IMG/VR virus record: IMGVR_UViG_3300046012_000558
Span: 1-35,648 of that record
Length of the DNA: 35,648 bases
Strand: one strand, 5' to 3'
From: a virus
Each line of letters begins with the position of its first letter. Position 1 is the stretch's first letter. The position numbers were made by a program, and so were the translations under genes. Below are positions 12,888 to 34,304 of the stretch, piece after piece. Under the pieces are notes generated by a model, which saw only the letters and a list, made by a program, of their open reading frames with translations, ran no database searches and was not told the origin of the DNA.

Positions 12888-12925
12888 ATAGGGTATCGCC
12901 TTTATGCACAAGGGATTTGGTTGTG

Positions 12926-21941: not shown

Positions 21942-22157
21942 TCATCTCCACCCTTCCCCATCGGCATAATCATTTATTGATTTTGCGAGATTTTTCGCTT
22001 CCTGTGGGGAGAAAGAAAGGTGGACCTCTTCTTCTCCATTATAAAAAGATACCTTTACCATATTGGTCGGAACCTGTATTTCTGAGTCATATCCGATTAT
22101 TACGCCTGGTCCTTCAATAGTTTTATACCAGCCTGCCCTAGAACGGTATATCATCAT
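21942..22157 (-). CDS. Small hypothetical protein after SSB
   Basis: About 71 residues from adjacent ATGs at 22157/22154, which overlap the DDDIPF codons of SSB in another frame. The sequence has [20 protein letters not shown], a beta hairpin followed by a helix ([14 protein letters not shown]). The longer frame to 22268 lies inside SSB and is rejected. No family was recognised. Confidence 0.6.
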
Positions 22158-22617
22158 CTGAAAATGTACTCCCTTGTCGCAACCCTCCCGGGTATGTCCC
22201 TGCACCATGCGCGGCAGTCCCGCCGCTCGCTTCCGCGTATGCCCTGCTTTCATCATACCCTCCTCCACTATTGCTGCCTTTGCTATCCAACATCTGCATT
22301 TCAGATGCGACTATTTCCGTTGCGTAGCGGTCACCTCCTATTTTTTCATCAAACCATTTCCTGGTTTGCAGCTTACCCTCGATATAGATTTTGCTGCCCT
22401 TGTTTAAGTACTGCCCAGTCACTTCAGCCAGACGGCCATACATTACCACCCTATGCCACTCTGTCTGCTCTTTCTTCTCGCCGGTTGTCTTGTCTTTCCA
22501 TGTTTCGGTAGTGGCGATAGATATCGCGCACACAGAGTTGCCATTAGTAAGCTTCTTCACTTCTGGCTTTTGTCCAAGATGGCCTAGTATGATTACTTTA
22601 TTTACGCCTTTGCTCAT
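22138..22617 (-). CDS. ssb: Single-stranded DNA-binding protein
   Basis: 159 residues. The OB-fold is clear ([17 protein letters not shown], then [15 protein letters not shown] and [15 protein letters not shown]), followed by a Gly/Ala-rich linker and the acidic tip DDDIPF that recruits partner proteins. Length and tip match bacterial and phage SSB of proteobacteria. It probably works with the RecT annealase and the replication proteins. It is coupled (TAATG) to the preceding gene. Confidence 0.95.
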
Positions 22618-25296: not shown

Positions 25297-25717
25297 TTTT
25301 AGCCTCATTCATAGGCAACGCAAGAATCCTTAACCATGGCAAAGGGATATCAAACTGAAACTCTCTTTTTATGTCATTCTTAAACTGATTTTTAAAAACA
25401 TCGTCGATAGAAGACCATAATTTTTCAATGATTGGCGTAATGTCATAAGCAGCCCCCTCTCTTCTTACTGCATATCTAAACGCGCAGACCGCAAGAGATT
25501 CTATTTCTTCGTCGGTTAATTTACTTTTAGTATATTCCTTGTCACTATTGGTATAGTAGCCGTGGGCGCCACACGCAAAGCAATGCGCAGGCGGAATATT
25601 AGATTCTAAGCCGTAGTGTTCTCCGCATATTTCGCACTTATATCTTTTGATTTTGTCAGCCACCTTTCGGTGGCTCCGGAAAAGATATTTCTTAAGAATC
25701 CAAATTCCAATCTTCAT
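25289..25717 (-). CDS. Zinc-finger protein with C-terminal helical domain
   Basis: 142 residues. A treble of Cys pairs (YKCEICGEHYG and HCFACGAHGY) forms a likely zinc ribbon at residues 28-54. Residues 65-110 (SKLTDEEIESLAVCAFRYAV) resemble a helical domain common in phage early proteins. It overlaps the methyltransferase stop and the next start. Function unknown; nucleic-acid binding is an inference. Confidence 0.68.
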   Translation of the reverse strand: MKIGIWILKKYLFRSHRKVADKIKRYKCEICGEHYGLESNIPPAHCFACGAHGYYTNSDKEYTKSKLTDEEIESLAVCAFRYAVRREGAAYDITPIIEKLWSSIDDVFKNQFKNDIKREFQFDIPLPWLRILALPMNEAKND

Positions 25718-26211
25718 TCTTTATCCATATCCCCAATTGTTTTCATAAAAACCATCCAGTGTGTATTATTAAGCTTTCCGGATTTGTGCCCAAACAGCGG
25801 TGCCGCACCAATAACCTCTAAGATTTCGCTCACTTTTATCTGTGTTTCGCTCCACTTAAAAATTAAAATTCCATGTTCCTGCAATACACGCATACACTCC
25901 GCAAAACCTTGCCTAAGCTCAATGCGCCAATCTTTACTTAAAACCCCATACTTTTTCGCCATCCAACTTTCTCTTCCGGCATCCTTAAGGTGTGGAGGGT
26001 CAAAAACCACAAGCTTAAAAGACAAGTCCGGGAAAGGCATCGATTTAAAATCAATCTCCATGTCAGGGGTTATTTCCAGAATTCTTCCGTCGCAAAGTGT
26101 GTGTTTTTCCGTGCGAATATCGGCATAAAAACAGAGAGGGTTATTTTTATCAAACCACATCATCCGCGCCCCGCAACAGGCATCAAGCACAATTTTTCCA
26201 GGCTCTATCAT
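25714..26211 (-). CDS. Phage SAM-dependent DNA methyltransferase, DPPH type
   Basis: 165 residues. Motif I is VLDACCGARMMWFD, a variant characteristic of a compact phage family; motif IV is VVFDPPHL with the DPPH signature of N6-adenine-type enzymes; the C-terminal HWMVFMK block also fits. There is no visible target-recognition domain, so specificity is unknown. It may modify phage DNA against host restriction. It is the first gene of the tightly overlapped 21.0-26.2 kb operon, preceded by a long structured leader. Confidence 0.85.
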   Translation of the reverse strand: MIEPGKIVLDACCGARMMWFDKNNPLCFYADIRTEKHTLCDGRILEITPDMEIDFKSMPFPDLSFKLVVFDPPHLKDAGRESWMAKKYGVLSKDWRIELRQGFAECMRVLQEHGILIFKWSETQIKVSEILEVIGAAPLFGHKSGKLNNTHWMVFMKTIGDMDKE

Positions 26212-28358: not shown

Positions 28359-28600
28359 GCGTACTTCTCTTTATCGGGCGCATTGAGAAAATCCTTAGTG
28401 ATTCTAATGACTTCTTCTAGTCGTGCGTCAACCCCTTCCGGCGTTCCTGTTTGCTTAATTACTTCACCCACTAAAAGAGATGCCGCTCCTAATCCCGAAT
28501 AAGCATCCACAGAGTTTGCTACCGTGTAGTCGATAAAAGCAGTAAGCAAGTGATTCGCGAGTGAATTAGTCTCTGCGTTAAATTTCTCTACGTCTGTCAT
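28355..28600 (-). CDS. Small helical protein downstream of helicase loader
   Basis: 81 residues with AGGAG before the ATG. Contains DAYSGLGAASLLVGEVIKQ and ARLEEVIRITKDFLNA. The stop and start are coupled to its neighbours. It may be a diverged member of the three-gene set 27776-28600. No family was recognised. Confidence 0.68.
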   Translation of the reverse strand: MTDVEKFNAETNSLANHLLTAFIDYTVANSVDAYSGLGAASLLVGEVIKQTGTPEGVDARLEEVIRITKDFLNAPDKEKYA

Positions 28601-29475
28601 ACTGTACTCCTGTCTCTCCAGTTAAAAGTTATAAAGAGCCCTTTACCGTCTTTTGTCTCCGCAAGACGTCGAAAAGCCCCCTCGCCAAGTGCCGTTTTTA
28701 TGCCGTCTTTGTCTGTGTTTGTCGTGATGATTGTGGGCCTGCCGTTGCTATAACGCCCTTCTATGAGCTTGTGCAACTCCACCTGCTCTGTGGGCGTCCC
28801 GTATTGCCTCCCCTCTCCCATTTCGTCGATGATAAGGAAATCAGGGGCTATATACCGTTTAATGACATCCATGCTGCTTTTTGTACTCCCGTAGCGATAC
28901 GTCCCTTTTATCTCATCAAGTATAGTCCATATTTGTTCGTGCATAACTTTGTAACCGGCGTCTAAAAAATGACGGTAAAGCCCGTAGGACAAGTGTGTTT
29001 TACCTGTCCCTGTTGCCCCGTACATAATCAGATTAAGGTTTCTGTATCGCCCACTTATACTCTCTGCATACCCCTTGATACAGATAAAAGCGTCTATCTG
29101 CATGCGATGCTCATCCGACGTATACCGCTCATCACACATCGAAAAGCTATCAAGCGTGCAGTGCTTATAAGCCTCCGGTATCTTCGCAAGCTGACTATAA
29201 ACGTAGGCTAGCCGCGCGTCGCTCTCATCCGTCGCCGCCCTTCGTGACCCAACTGACAAAACCACACGTTTACCCGAAAACCCCAAAAACGTCGAGAGCC
29301 ATGACAAAAAGTCTCGCCTTACCCGTGCCTCTACGTGCTCATTCGGCGCGAGCAGACGTATGACATCACCATCCTCCGCTACTTGCAACGGCTTTACCCA
29401 CGTCGCTATAACATCATCCGGGAATTTGATACGCAGACTCTCTACACACTCCATCCACCGCTCTTCTACCGTCAT
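28597..29475 (-). CDS. Helicase loader: DnaA-domain-I-like part fused to DnaC-type AAA+
   Basis: 292 residues. Residues 1-75 read like DnaA domain I (ESLRIKFPDDVIATWVKPLQ, then IRLLAPNEHVEARVRRDFL), the part of DnaA that contacts DnaB and DiaA. Residues 110-290 are an IstB/DnaC-like AAA+ domain: Walker A GATGTGKT at 153-160, Walker B FLIIDEMGEG at 213-222, sensor I TIITTNTD and a GAFRRLAET arginine element. Position after the initiator gene mirrors lambda P. The start is the ATG at 29475, overlapping the initiator stop (TGATG). Role: bring the host helicase to the phage origin. Confidence 0.85.
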   Translation of the reverse strand: MTVEERWMECVESLRIKFPDDVIATWVKPLQVAEDGDVIRLLAPNEHVEARVRRDFLSWLSTFLGFSGKRVVLSVGSRRAATDESDARLAYVYSQLAKIPEAYKHCTLDSFSMCDERYTSDEHRMQIDAFICIKGYAESISGRYRNLNLIMYGATGTGKTHLSYGLYRHFLDAGYKVMHEQIWTILDEIKGTYRYGSTKSSMDVIKRYIAPDFLIIDEMGEGRQYGTPTEQVELHKLIEGRYSNGRPTIITTNTDKDGIKTALGEGAFRRLAETKDGKGLFITFNWRDRSTV

Positions 29476-30761
29476 CACGCCCCCTCAGTCTCTTCAGTCT
29501 CAGCCACAGCATACTTGCGTCTTAGCTGCTCCACATCAAACTCACCGGTCTCCATGACAAATTTTTTCGCCCTTTTGGGTTGACTTAAGCGTCTTTTTCG
29601 ATCATGCTGACCTTTCTCAGTTGCATCACTTTCCTTTTCTTGACCCGCCGGTACCAGCGGGTTTTTTTTGTCCGCAATAGCCTCCAGCATCCGCGAGTGA
29701 TAGTACCCAGGGGAGTACGGTAACTTACCCCTTAGCCGGACGCTTGCCTCATCGCACGCCTCACAAATTCCTCTAATTTCATCCAGTGTCAAATCAGTCG
29801 CCCATTCCAAAAACATCGCGCGGAAATGTCCGTGTGCGCGCGTCATGTCCTGCTGTAGCTTCATCCGAATGCCGGCGTTAAGTCCCTCTTTGCCCGCAAA
29901 GTACGACGCAACGGCCCAAACGTCTTCCGTCTCCTTGAGCTTCGCGCTGCCGACATCAGCGCTTAGCTCCTGCAGCCCGGCCGTGGATTCGGACTCCACG
30001 TACCGCCGCGGTGAAGACGGTAACGGCGATTCGGCCTCGCTGTCGCTCACAATCCCACCATCGGTGCTGCTCTCAGTTGCACCACCTATCCAGGTGTCGG
30101 GGTGCGTCCCGGTCATCGCCGGGGTTTCTTCTTGGTTCAAAAAATCGTTTCCGCTCAAAATAACACCCGCAGGCGCACACGCCCGCGTTTTAGTTATTTT
30201 AGTTTTAGTTTTTAAACTGCCTATTGTTAATGCTGTCGACTTTGAAAATTCGGCAGGGTTATCGGCATGCTGAAAACCTATATCGCTGTTACTGCTGTTA
30301 ACCCTGTCGTCGCTTCCATTTAATATATCAATAATCTCTTTTAAATCAATATCTTTCAGCTTATCAGACCCTGTCGCCAACCCTGTCGCCAACCCTGTTG
30401 GCATGCCTGTCGCCAACCCTGTCGCCAACCCTGTCGCCAGCATGCTGTCACTTTTTGCATAAATTTGAGCCAGCGGACATGACAAAACAATCCCTTTGCC
30501 GTCCAGAGTCCACTTTTTTACAAGCCCCACCTCCTCCAGTTTTTCGACACCTCGCCTTACCCTTCCCGTTCCTTTTACTCCAAACATTTGAGCCAAACTC
30601 GGCCAGTATGTCTCCCACATCCGCGTATCTTTATTCCCTTCCATGCGCGCGGCAAGATAAATGCAGTGCGCAAGCGGCGTCTTTCTAACAGCGCGCAATG
30701 CAGCAAGCTCATCGCTACAGAAACTTACCCTCTGACCGACAAATTTTTTCCCGTGAGACAA
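29475..30761 (-). CDS. Replication initiator (lambda O-like role), TTG start
   Basis: 428 residues from the TTG at 30761, chosen because GGGGAG lies 7 bases upstream and no in-frame ATG fits. Residues 1-100 are a winged-helix DNA-binding domain (TYWPSLAQMFGV, GRVRRGVEKLEEVGLVKKW). Residues 108-131 are repeats of LATG encoded by the iteron DNA. A long low-complexity linker follows to about 280, then a helical C-terminal domain (MFLEWATDLTLDEIRGICEA). Presence of the iterons in the gene, and a helicase loader after it, support an initiator. Confidence 0.78.
   Translation of the reverse strand: MSHGKKFVGQRVSFCSDELAALRAVRKTPLAHCIYLAARMEGNKDTRMWETYWPSLAQMFGVKGTGRVRRGVEKLEEVGLVKKWTLDGKGIVLSCPLAQIYAKSDSMLATGLATGLATGMPTGLATGLATGSDKLKDIDLKEIIDILNGSDDRVNSSNSDIGFQHADNPAEFSKSTALTIGSLKTKTKITKTRACAPAGVILSGNDFLNQEETPAMTGTHPDTWIGGATESSTDGGIVSDSEAESPLPSSPRRYVESESTAGLQELSADVGSAKLKETEDVWAVASYFAGKEGLNAGIRMKLQQDMTRAHGHFRAMFLEWATDLTLDEIRGICEACDEASVRLRGKLPYSPGYYHSRMLEAIADKKNPLVPAGQEKESDATEKGQHDRKRRLSQPKRAKKFVMETGEFDVEQLRRKYAVAETEETEGA
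30316..30441. other. Probable replication origin: six 12-bp iterons plus AT-rich tract
   Basis: Six tandem units of CCTGTCGCCAAC run without gaps from 30370 to 30441; units 1, 2, 4 and 5 are identical, unit 6 has one change and unit 3 is degenerate (CCTGTTGGCATG). An AT-rich tract (TTTAATATATCAATAATCTC) lies at 30318-30356. Iterons beside an AT-rich DNA-unwinding tract within the initiator gene is the lambda-origin layout. Confidence 0.75.
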
Positions 30762-32327: not shown

Positions 32328-32515
32328 GTATCGCGGACATGTACAAGAGCAAAATCGACCAGATTTTAGCAACATTTAAAGACGACATAAATGTCCTCGT
32401 CACATCCGCGTATCACAAAGGATATATGGATGCTTGCGATGATGCAATTAAAACCATAAGTAACACTGCAACAGGAGATAAATCTAATGAAACAAATAAC
32501 GCAAATAACGCTTGA
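32324..32515 (+). CDS. Small acidic helical protein
   Basis: 63 residues from the ATG at 32324. Contains YHKGYMDACDDAIKTI and an Asn-rich tail. The stop overlaps the next gene by 29 bases. No family was recognised. Confidence 0.62.
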   Translation: MSIADMYKSKIDQILATFKDDINVLVTSAYHKGYMDACDDAIKTISNTATGDKSNETNNANNA

Positions 32516-32846
32516 TAGCCTGCTCAGATACCATCAGGGCTATCTGGATAATAAAGCATTGATTAAGTATAAAGACTCTCTCCCCAACGCCGTTCCGGGG
32601 CAACAGCTTGTTTTGAATGAATGTAATTTAAGAGGGTTAGACTTTCGTAGAGTAGATTTAACCGACGCTGATTTAAGCGGTTCGGATGCAACAGGCGCAA
32701 ACTTTATGGGCTGCGCGATGCCGGAGGAAAAGTATATGCCTGAGATTAATGTCTGCGACCTATGGGGACAAGAATTTCACGGGAGCGAAGAGGCGGCGCA
32801 GAAAGCCTATGATGAATTATTAAATAAATCGGGAGGTTCATCATGA
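32487..32846 (+). CDS. Pentapeptide-repeat protein
   Basis: 119 residues. Residues 42-78 contain repeats of the A(D/N)Lxx type (LNECNLRGLDFRRVDLTDAD, LSGSDATGANFMG), forming a short quadrilateral beta-helix of about seven repeats. Some such proteins mimic DNA and inhibit gyrase, but this one is too short to claim that. It ends in a helical tail and is coupled to the next gene. Confidence 0.8.
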   Translation: MKQITQITLDSLLRYHQGYLDNKALIKYKDSLPNAVPGQQLVLNECNLRGLDFRRVDLTDADLSGSDATGANFMGCAMPEEKYMPEINVCDLWGQEFHGSEEAAQKAYDELLNKSGGSS

Positions 32847-33051: not shown

Positions 33052-33348
33052 ATGAATCATGAAAGCATTGAAGTAGGGAAAATATATACGGACTCTAATG
33101 GTGTAAAATTTTTAGCTAAAAGGTTATGTGATGATATGAGTCTCAGACCATACGCGCCAGAGAGGCAAATTTGCGTACAGATTGTTTTGGCAATGATTGC
33201 CGAGATAGAAAAAGAGATGGCCATAAAAAAACATGAGGCGCTAGATTTTTCTAGGCATTCGAGAGAGCGATTAGAGCTCGAGGCAGAGGCTGGAGCTTTG
33301 AATAAATCAGTACTTATAATCGAAAGATTTTTGGAGGAAACAGCATGA
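33052..33348 (+). CDS. Early hypothetical helical protein
   Basis: 98 residues with GAGG upstream. N-terminal strand (IEVGKIYTDSNGVKFLAKRL), then long helices (IVLAMIAEIEKEMAIKKHE). An 18-codon frame starting at 33006 overlaps its start and might be a leader. The stop overlaps the RecT start. No family was recognised. Confidence 0.68.
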   Translation: MNHESIEVGKIYTDSNGVKFLAKRLCDDMSLRPYAPERQICVQIVLAMIAEIEKEMAIKKHEALDFSRHSRERLELEAEAGALNKSVLIIERFLEETA

Positions 33349-34304
33349 AAACTGAAATGACAACATTTGAACAAGAGCCAACCAGCTTAATAGCTTACGA
33401 TGATTCATCCCCTTTGTTGCAGGATGGCATGTTTGAAAAAATGATTAAGCTGGCTGATTTAATGGCAAAGTCACAAACCTTGCCTGAGCATTTTCACAAC
33501 CGGCCCGGCGATTGTTTGCGTGTTATTGAGCTCGCGCATCGTATGCGGCAGTCACCTTTTGCATTAGCTGACTGGTGCTATATGACAGGAGGGAAGCTGT
33601 CTATGGAAGGCAAAGGTATTGCCGCTTTGGTCAATAGCAGCCCGCGTATAGTGGGCTCCTTAGACTACAAGTACTCTGGCAATAAAAATAACCCTGCCGA
33701 ATATGCGTGCACGGTCATTGGGCTGCGACGCGGGGAGGAAGAGCCTAGAGAAGTCAAAGTAACATTAAAACAAGGGATAGACGATAGTACAAAAAAACAG
33801 AAAGATGGAAGCATGAAATGCAATCCTCGTTGGCATAAGGATCCAGATCAGATGTTAGCCTACTATGGCTCGCGCGTATGGGCTCGACGATGGGCCCCAG
33901 AGGTTATTGGTGGCTTATATACACCAGATGAGTTAAATGCTGTTCAGCGAGACGAGTCGGGGCGCGCTGTAGTTATCCAGCGCGCCTACAAGAAACCGAT
34001 TAAGGACATTCCCATTGTCATTGCACCGCCTATTACCGAACCCGGCGTACCCGCTGGACTTATGAAATCTGCGTTCCAAGAAATGGATCAAGCGGCGGTC
34101 AATGATGATGATAAAGGTCTGAAGAAAGCATTTGCTTTCTATTGGGGAGAGGTTAAAACACATGACGCTACCCTTCTGCCTGAGCTGAAGCAGAAATATG
34201 AGGGCTGCAAGGCGTTTATGCAGGCAAAGAAACCAACCGAGGAAGAGCCGGTTGTTAAGCAAGATGAATGGACGGAAGCATATGATAATGCGGAGGTGGC
34301 ATGA
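33345..34304 (+). CDS. recT: RecT-family single-strand annealase
   Basis: 319 residues. The core shows MAKSQTLPEHFHNRPGDCLR, the GGKLSMEGKGIAALV block and the late RVWARRWAPEVIGGLYTPDE motif that identify RecT-type recombinases; the last 90 residues are a variable acidic tail. It should anneal complementary single strands during recombination and concatemer formation, working with SSB. No RecE or lambda Exo-type nuclease was found next to it, so the 5' exonuclease partner is missing or unrecognised. Confidence 0.85.
   Translation: MKTEMTTFEQEPTSLIAYDDSSPLLQDGMFEKMIKLADLMAKSQTLPEHFHNRPGDCLRVIELAHRMRQSPFALADWCYMTGGKLSMEGKGIAALVNSSPRIVGSLDYKYSGNKNNPAEYACTVIGLRRGEEEPREVKVTLKQGIDDSTKKQKDGSMKCNPRWHKDPDQMLAYYGSRVWARRWAPEVIGGLYTPDELNAVQRDESGRAVVIQRAYKKPIKDIPIVIAPPITEPGVPAGLMKSAFQEMDQAAVNDDDKGLKKAFAFYWGEVKTHDATLLPELKQKYEGCKAFMQAKKPTEEEPVVKQDEWTEAYDNAEVA

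Follow-up and report, generated by a model that had tools for sequence, protein, structure and literature searches.

Gene content of the locus

We analysed a 35.6 kb IMG/VR virus record (IMGVR_UViG_3300046012_000558; the window is its whole length of 35,648 nucleotides) and found that its minus strand carries a helicase-loader gene whose product begins with a DnaA domain I. The gene lies directly downstream of a putative replication initiator gene (Table 1). It reads as 293 aa from a GTG at 29478 or as 292 aa from an ATG at 29475, with the stop at 28597. The ATG is probably the start that is used, because the TGA of the upstream gene sits inside a TGATG overlap that couples the two genes translationally. 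Residue numbers below follow the 293-aa version; an earlier note on this DNA used the 292-aa frame.

Searches of Pfam, PHROGs, NCBIfam and the phage collection gave no match to the putative initiator. Its gene contains direct iterons, which encode an LATG repeat within the protein, and AT-rich DNA lies beside them. In phage lambda, the iterons are likewise found in gene O with AT-rich DNA beside them, and the loader gene comes next, as in the window; however, no sequence relation between lambda O and the window initiator was detected. The iterons and the AT-rich DNA thus form a candidate lambda-like replication origin, whose origin function is suggested by this layout. A single match to the DnaA box TTWTNCACA lies in the window (at 12902; 3.5 expected), and there is none near the replication genes. 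With lambda-like iterons in the adjacent gene and no DnaA box near the replication genes, the earlier proposal that the phage bypasses host DnaA is plausible.

The window also holds podovirus-like head and DNA-ejection genes (portal, terminase, head closure and DNA ejection) and the further genes listed in Table 1, among them one for a pentapeptide-repeat protein; proteins of this type can act on DNA gyrase. We found no match to DnaB_C or a DnaB-type helicase in the window. Taken with the iterons and AT-rich DNA, this makes it most likely that origin opening is carried out by the phage itself and that DnaB is supplied by the host. As to the identity of that host, there is no tRNA in the window and no close phage, and the terminase is 27–36% identical to those of phages of varied hosts.

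Table 1. Features of the replication region and other genes in the window (residues numbered from the GTG at 29478).
Feature	Position	Strand	Evidence or remarks
Fused helicase-loader open reading frame	28597..29478	(-)	Open reading frame; PF11638 and PF01695; PHROG 50; full-length AF2 model, mean pLDDT 85.5
DnaA domain I, residues 1–77	29248..29478	(-)	PF11638 30.9 bits; own profile 47.7 bits; PDB fold matches
Flexible hinge between domains, residues 78–83	29230..29247	(-)	Sole segment with pLDDT < 50
Loader helix (84–97) and DnaC-type AAA+ domain, residues 84–290	28609..29229	(-)	PHROG 50, phmmer, Foldseek
Walker A GATGTGKT, residues 154–161	28996..29019	(-)	G154, G157, G159 and K160 invariant in 78 sequences
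Walker B DFLIIDEMG, residues 213–221	28816..28842	(-)	L215, D218, E219 and G221 invariant in the 78-sequence alignment
R271, arginine-finger position	28666..28668	(-)	Invariant in 78 loaders
TGATG overlap, initiator stop and loader start	29473..29477	(-)	GAGGGGG just upstream; translational coupling; sequence
Putative replication initiator, 428 aa	29475..30761	(-)	Directly upstream of loader; internal iterons
Six 12-bp iterons, consensus ACCCTGTCGCCA	30368..30439		Inside initiator gene; TRF score 116, period 12, 6.0 copies
Extra partial iteron copy	30300-30309		Repeat search
AT-rich stretch beside iterons, candidate unwinding element	30180..30367		30–43% GC in most 60-base windows
SSB	22138-22617	(-)	
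DNA methyltransferase-like protein	25714-26211	(-)	PHROG 954
Small pentapeptide-repeat protein	32487-32846	(+)	
RecT-family annealing protein	33345-34304	(+)	

The AAA+ half belongs with DnaC-like loaders

We found that residues 94–289 match the PHROG 50 family 'DnaC-like helicase loader' (E 6e-38, 132 bits) and that the protein matches PF01695 IstB at 49.1 bits (cut-off 24.1). In a phmmer search, the AAA+ half matched E. coli DnaC (6qel) at E 2e-13, and its best Foldseek matches were 6qem and 6qel, making E. coli DnaC in the DnaBC complex the nearest solved structure both by sequence and by fold. To place the protein among its relatives, we used an alignment of it with 77 other loaders from phages, plasmids and viral contigs (78 sequences). 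The Walker A, Walker B and arginine-finger positions of DnaC-like loaders are all present, as is sensor I (N254, invariant in the alignment), so that the motifs described in the earlier note are real. R271 is presumably the arginine finger of the DnaC family, as in E. coli DnaC. The C-terminal FxW..R of loaders is also kept, and helix 84–97 aligns with a helix common to all loaders. From this family membership, the protein would be expected to load host DnaB in an ATP-dependent manner.

The N-terminal segment is a DnaA domain I in place of the usual module

In the N-terminal segment, residues 6–61 match PF11638 DnaA_N at 30.9 bits, above the curated cut-off of 24.6 bits (E 2e-7), and the span of the domain is given as residues 6–64 within the segment listed in Table 1. 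A profile that we built from 49 aligned domain I sequences of cellular DnaAs scored 47.7 bits against the protein, whereas 2000 shuffled versions of its sequence reached no more than 5.6 bits, and phmmer matched the E. coli DnaA domain I structure 2e0g at E 6e-5. When residues 1–82 were modelled alone, from the single sequence without an alignment (pLDDT 77.8), the predicted order of elements was alpha-alpha-beta-beta-alpha-alpha-beta (helices 4–15, 21–28, 47–56 and 58–64; strands 32–36, 39–44 and 71–76), and the model has the KH-like alpha-alpha-beta-beta-alpha-beta fold of DnaA domain I. Its three best structural matches are all DnaA domain I structures: 4tps (Z 11.7, rmsd 2.4 over 77), 2wp0 (Z 9.7, rmsd 2.5 over 75) and 2e0g (Z 8.4, rmsd 3.2 over 79); unrelated KH-like ribosomal proteins and DciA (8a3v) follow at Z of about 8 and lower. 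With both domains matched by profile and by predicted fold, the protein is what the earlier note had read from residues 1–75 and the motifs behind them, a loader of the DnaC/IstB type preceded by a true DnaA domain I.

In 72 of the 77 other loaders, a zinc-ribbon-like CxxH...CxxC motif precedes the AAA+ domain; of the remaining five, two are short, two begin with an N-terminus of the E. coli DnaC type, and in one the motif is degenerate. The window loader has neither the zinc-ribbon ligands nor a DnaC-type N-terminus in this alignment, and DnaA domain I stands where a DnaC/DnaI-type helicase-binding module would be. The remark in the earlier note that this segment is missing from lambda P and standard DnaC understates the difference, since phage loaders normally have another N-terminal module there, and its absence here makes domain I a replacement, not an addition. 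Because the DnaC/DnaI-type module is missing, we file the protein as a variant DnaC-like loader on the strength of its AAA+ core, a placement made from sequence. PHROG 50 phage loaders such as those of mEpX1, Vibrio phage X29 and Pseudomonas phage F10 resemble it in the AAA+ core (26–30% identity, with the invariant motifs) and in gene position directly after a replication initiator, but differ in their zinc-ribbon-like N-terminus. E. coli DnaC shares the AAA+ fold; in contrast to the window loader, it docks onto the LH-DH module of DnaB by means of an N-terminal helix. Unlike the window loader, lambda P is not known to be an AAA+ protein.

The combination of domains appears to be without precedent

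To look for other cases, we searched about 169 loader loci (7,971 open reading frames from phages, plasmids, viral contigs and genomes, among them a DnaA contig that served as a positive) with the domain I profile and found no other credible fusion, the next best score being 11 bits. DnaA_N was absent from every part of 50 virus and phage records with DnaC-like loaders. A Pfam scan of the loader alignment reported DnaA_N for the window member, and the family is not among the 25 most shared. A whole-protein search of 369 genomes of one class (inferred to be Gammaproteobacteria in the GTDB sense) gave no loader-sized protein spanning both domains: DnaAs matched residues 5–220 and loaders matched residues ~97–290. 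Peptide patterns for domain I, run over 2.9 million viral contigs, returned 15 stretches, and those of an earlier alignment 85, with none confirmed in either case. Pattern searches found no close relatives of the loader, initiator or terminase in viral contigs and none of the loader in genome contigs, in sets from which near records may be omitted. All of these searches are bounded by the sensitivity of tblastn and of the patterns, and records very near the window may be left out of them.

Of 398 Pseudomonadota genomes, 389 contain DnaA_N, in almost every case as a single copy. The extra copies that we re-examined comprised one second full-length DnaA (L231) and 13 non-DnaA open reading frames above 14 bits; in all 13, domain I is C-terminal, and most are recognisable helix-turn-helix (HTH) initiators. 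In a profile search of these genomes for loaders, none of the genomes with a second DnaA_N is among the 33 with a loader-like match, a number that counts loaders only, the profile used (alignment A4) having lost its N-terminal columns. A 122-aa open frame at G571:C1:2960985-2961227 may be a DnaA domain I that stands on its own; it shares 32% identity with the domain in the window.

Some candidates were rejected. Vibrio phage PVP-XSN, Escherichia phage 683R6 and others gave tblastn matches into the N-terminus and have no DnaA_N there. DnaA matches to the N-terminus in the phage collection were, in those opened or annotated, cellular dnaA in phage-labelled contigs; CAKLQH020000026.1, AFYI01000003.1 and MT839682.1 are such bacterial contigs in the phage collection.

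Such a fusion is not described in the open-access literature that we searched, which is weak evidence. Taken together, these data indicate that the combination of a loader with DnaA domain I is real and apparently unprecedented, the novelty lying in the combination, and that it is not a common phage architecture. Because no second copy of the fusion is known, there is no conservation from which function could be argued.

Domain I is closer to cellular DnaA than to C-terminal copies

Cellular DnaA domain I (PF11638) is like the window domain in sequence and fold. The nearest sequences are the cellular DnaAs L204 and L215, with 25 of 58 residues identical (43%); both appear to be of a Pseudomonas-like type. 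The C-terminal type found on initiators shares 8–15 identical residues with the window domain, at most 15 of 57. We considered that domain I passed from an initiator C-terminus to the loader and rejected this, since the window copy is nearer to cellular DnaA, making capture from dnaA likelier. Judged by sequence, the domain is most simply explained as having been captured long ago from a cellular dnaA.

DnaA domain I turns up repeatedly as an addition to replicon initiators. Phage-like initiators ending in DnaA_N are present in L232 (637-1740, forward strand), L241 (1099-1692, reverse strand) and L242 (625-1773, reverse strand), and short HTH proteins with C-terminal DnaA_N in L233, L234, L235 and L244 (also L236–L239); four of the short proteins adjoin ParA-like genes, and one of these also adjoins a ParB-like gene. 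No loader gene was found within ~1.5 kb of the C-terminal cases, including no DnaC-type loader beside the L232, L241 and L242 initiators. These HTH initiators of phages and plasmids resemble the window in that a mobile replication module has borrowed domain I outside DnaA, but they carry it at the initiator C-terminus, whereas in the window it is at the loader N-terminus.

The contact faces of domain I are unequally kept

Domain I of E. coli DnaA uses L5, W6, Q8, C9, L10 and L33 for dimerisation, contacts DnaB via E21 and F46, and contacts DiaA via E21, W25, N44, F46 and W50 (PMC5448010). In the window domain, W6, C9, W25 and N44 are kept (as W8, C11, W27 and N46), and E21, F46, W50 and L33 are changed (to V23, H48, R52 and E35). 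Among 59 aligned cellular DnaAs, F46 is present in 52, W50 in 51 and E21 in 2; replacement of F46 and W50 is therefore telling, and replacement of E21 says little. It is therefore unlikely, from the residues alone, that the window domain uses the E. coli DnaB/DiaA face unchanged. The idea of a DnaB/DiaA hook is not supported in the form first given; W25 and N44 of that face are kept. H. pylori DnaA also lacks F46 (PMC5448010), which makes a different contact conceivable. The dimer face (W6 and C9 equivalents) is better kept than the DnaB/DiaA face.

A proposed role in helicase recruitment

On balance, we favour a lambda-type initiator and loader pair in which the helicase-binding N-terminus of the loader has been swapped for DnaA domain I, likely as a recruitment latch. 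The phage initiator would bind the iterons inside its own gene and open the AT-rich DNA beside them, and the AAA+ loader, translated in concert with the initiator, would bring in the DnaB helicase, proposed to be that of the host because none of its type was found in the window. Domain I would take the place of the N-terminal helicase-binding module, which is zinc-ribbon-like in most phage loaders and helical in DnaC, and most likely grips DnaB and/or the initiator complex with a surface that has become adapted to this phage. We are less sure of the step in which domain I takes over this contact, and least sure of its partner.

DnaC lacking its N-terminal domain (53-end) cannot bind DnaB (PMC9912922), so a loader needs some latch at its N-terminus. 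DnaA domain I has the same fold as the KH-like domain of the DciA loader, and an interaction with DnaB is reported for each of them (PMC9912922, PMC5720831). DciA (DUF721) uses its KH-like fold in helicase loading (PMC5720831, PMC9912922) but has no AAA+ domain, and the window loader has no DciA family match. The failure of truncated DnaC on DnaB, the lack of such a domain in the window loader and the reported interaction of KH-like domains of DnaA and DciA with DnaB together point to domain I as the latch. The changes of E21 to V23 and F46 to H48 count against this, as they make direct DnaB binding by the known face doubtful, and so does an initiator that has no recognised homologue.

Since the dimer face is the better kept, pairing with host DnaA or self-association has to be weighed. 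Domain I could be an adaptor whose kept alpha-1 dimer face (W8, C11) pairs with domain I of host DnaA, drawing the loader and helicase to DnaA or sequestering DnaA and so stopping host initiation. Retention of this face with loss of F46 and W50 would fit, as would the closeness to cellular DnaA over the C-terminal type. However, W6 is found in 58 of 59 DnaAs and in all 10 C-terminal copies that reach the column, so its conservation may be structural; L33 of the dimer face is E35 here, and the single DnaA box of the window is far from the phage origin. We consider the adaptor role unlikely. We think it quite unlikely that domain I is instead a self-association module that aids loader oligomers, with the helicase contacted by the AAA+ part or by helix 84–97. 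The kept dimer-face residues and the alignment of that helix with one common to all loaders agree with this, but other loaders oligomerise without domain I, and N-terminal deletion of DnaC abolishes DnaB binding (PMC9912922).

That the protein is a divergent or degraded DnaA that lost domain IV, and not a loader, is very improbable. Many DnaAs do align over residues 5–220 at ~30% identity, and the TIGR DnaA model aligns with residues 8–255 at 35 bits. Against this, the AAA+ part has a score of 132 bits for DnaC-like loaders but one of 13.7 bits, below the cut-off of 23, for the DnaA ATPase family PF00308; the loader-specific invariants and C-terminal FxW..R are kept; the gene follows an iteron-bearing initiator gene, as phage loader genes do; and the protein ends at 293 with no domain IV. 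An assembly chimera of a host dnaA start and a phage loader is hardly credible: the fusion is known from one contig only, but the nearest sampled domain I is merely 43% identical, the reading frame and hinge are clean, and the evidence against such a join includes a start TGATG-coupled to the phage initiator and a GC3 that is the same either side of the junction (0.55 vs 0.53).

Implications for helicase loading

If domain I is a recruitment latch, a broader reading may be offered tentatively, as one that we would not yet rely on. Both halves of the DnaA-to-DnaC hand-over would lie in one polypeptide, giving a self-recruiting loader for which host DnaA and the host loader are dispensable, and helicase latches would be interchangeable KH-type modules. 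The cellular loader DciA has been replaced several times by phage loaders (PMC9912922). The finding touches on how loaders grip the replicative helicase and on how phage loaders came to replace DciA. As a natural module swap, the window protein offers a ready test of whether domain I alone, away from the initiator, recruits DnaB or DnaA, and by which face.
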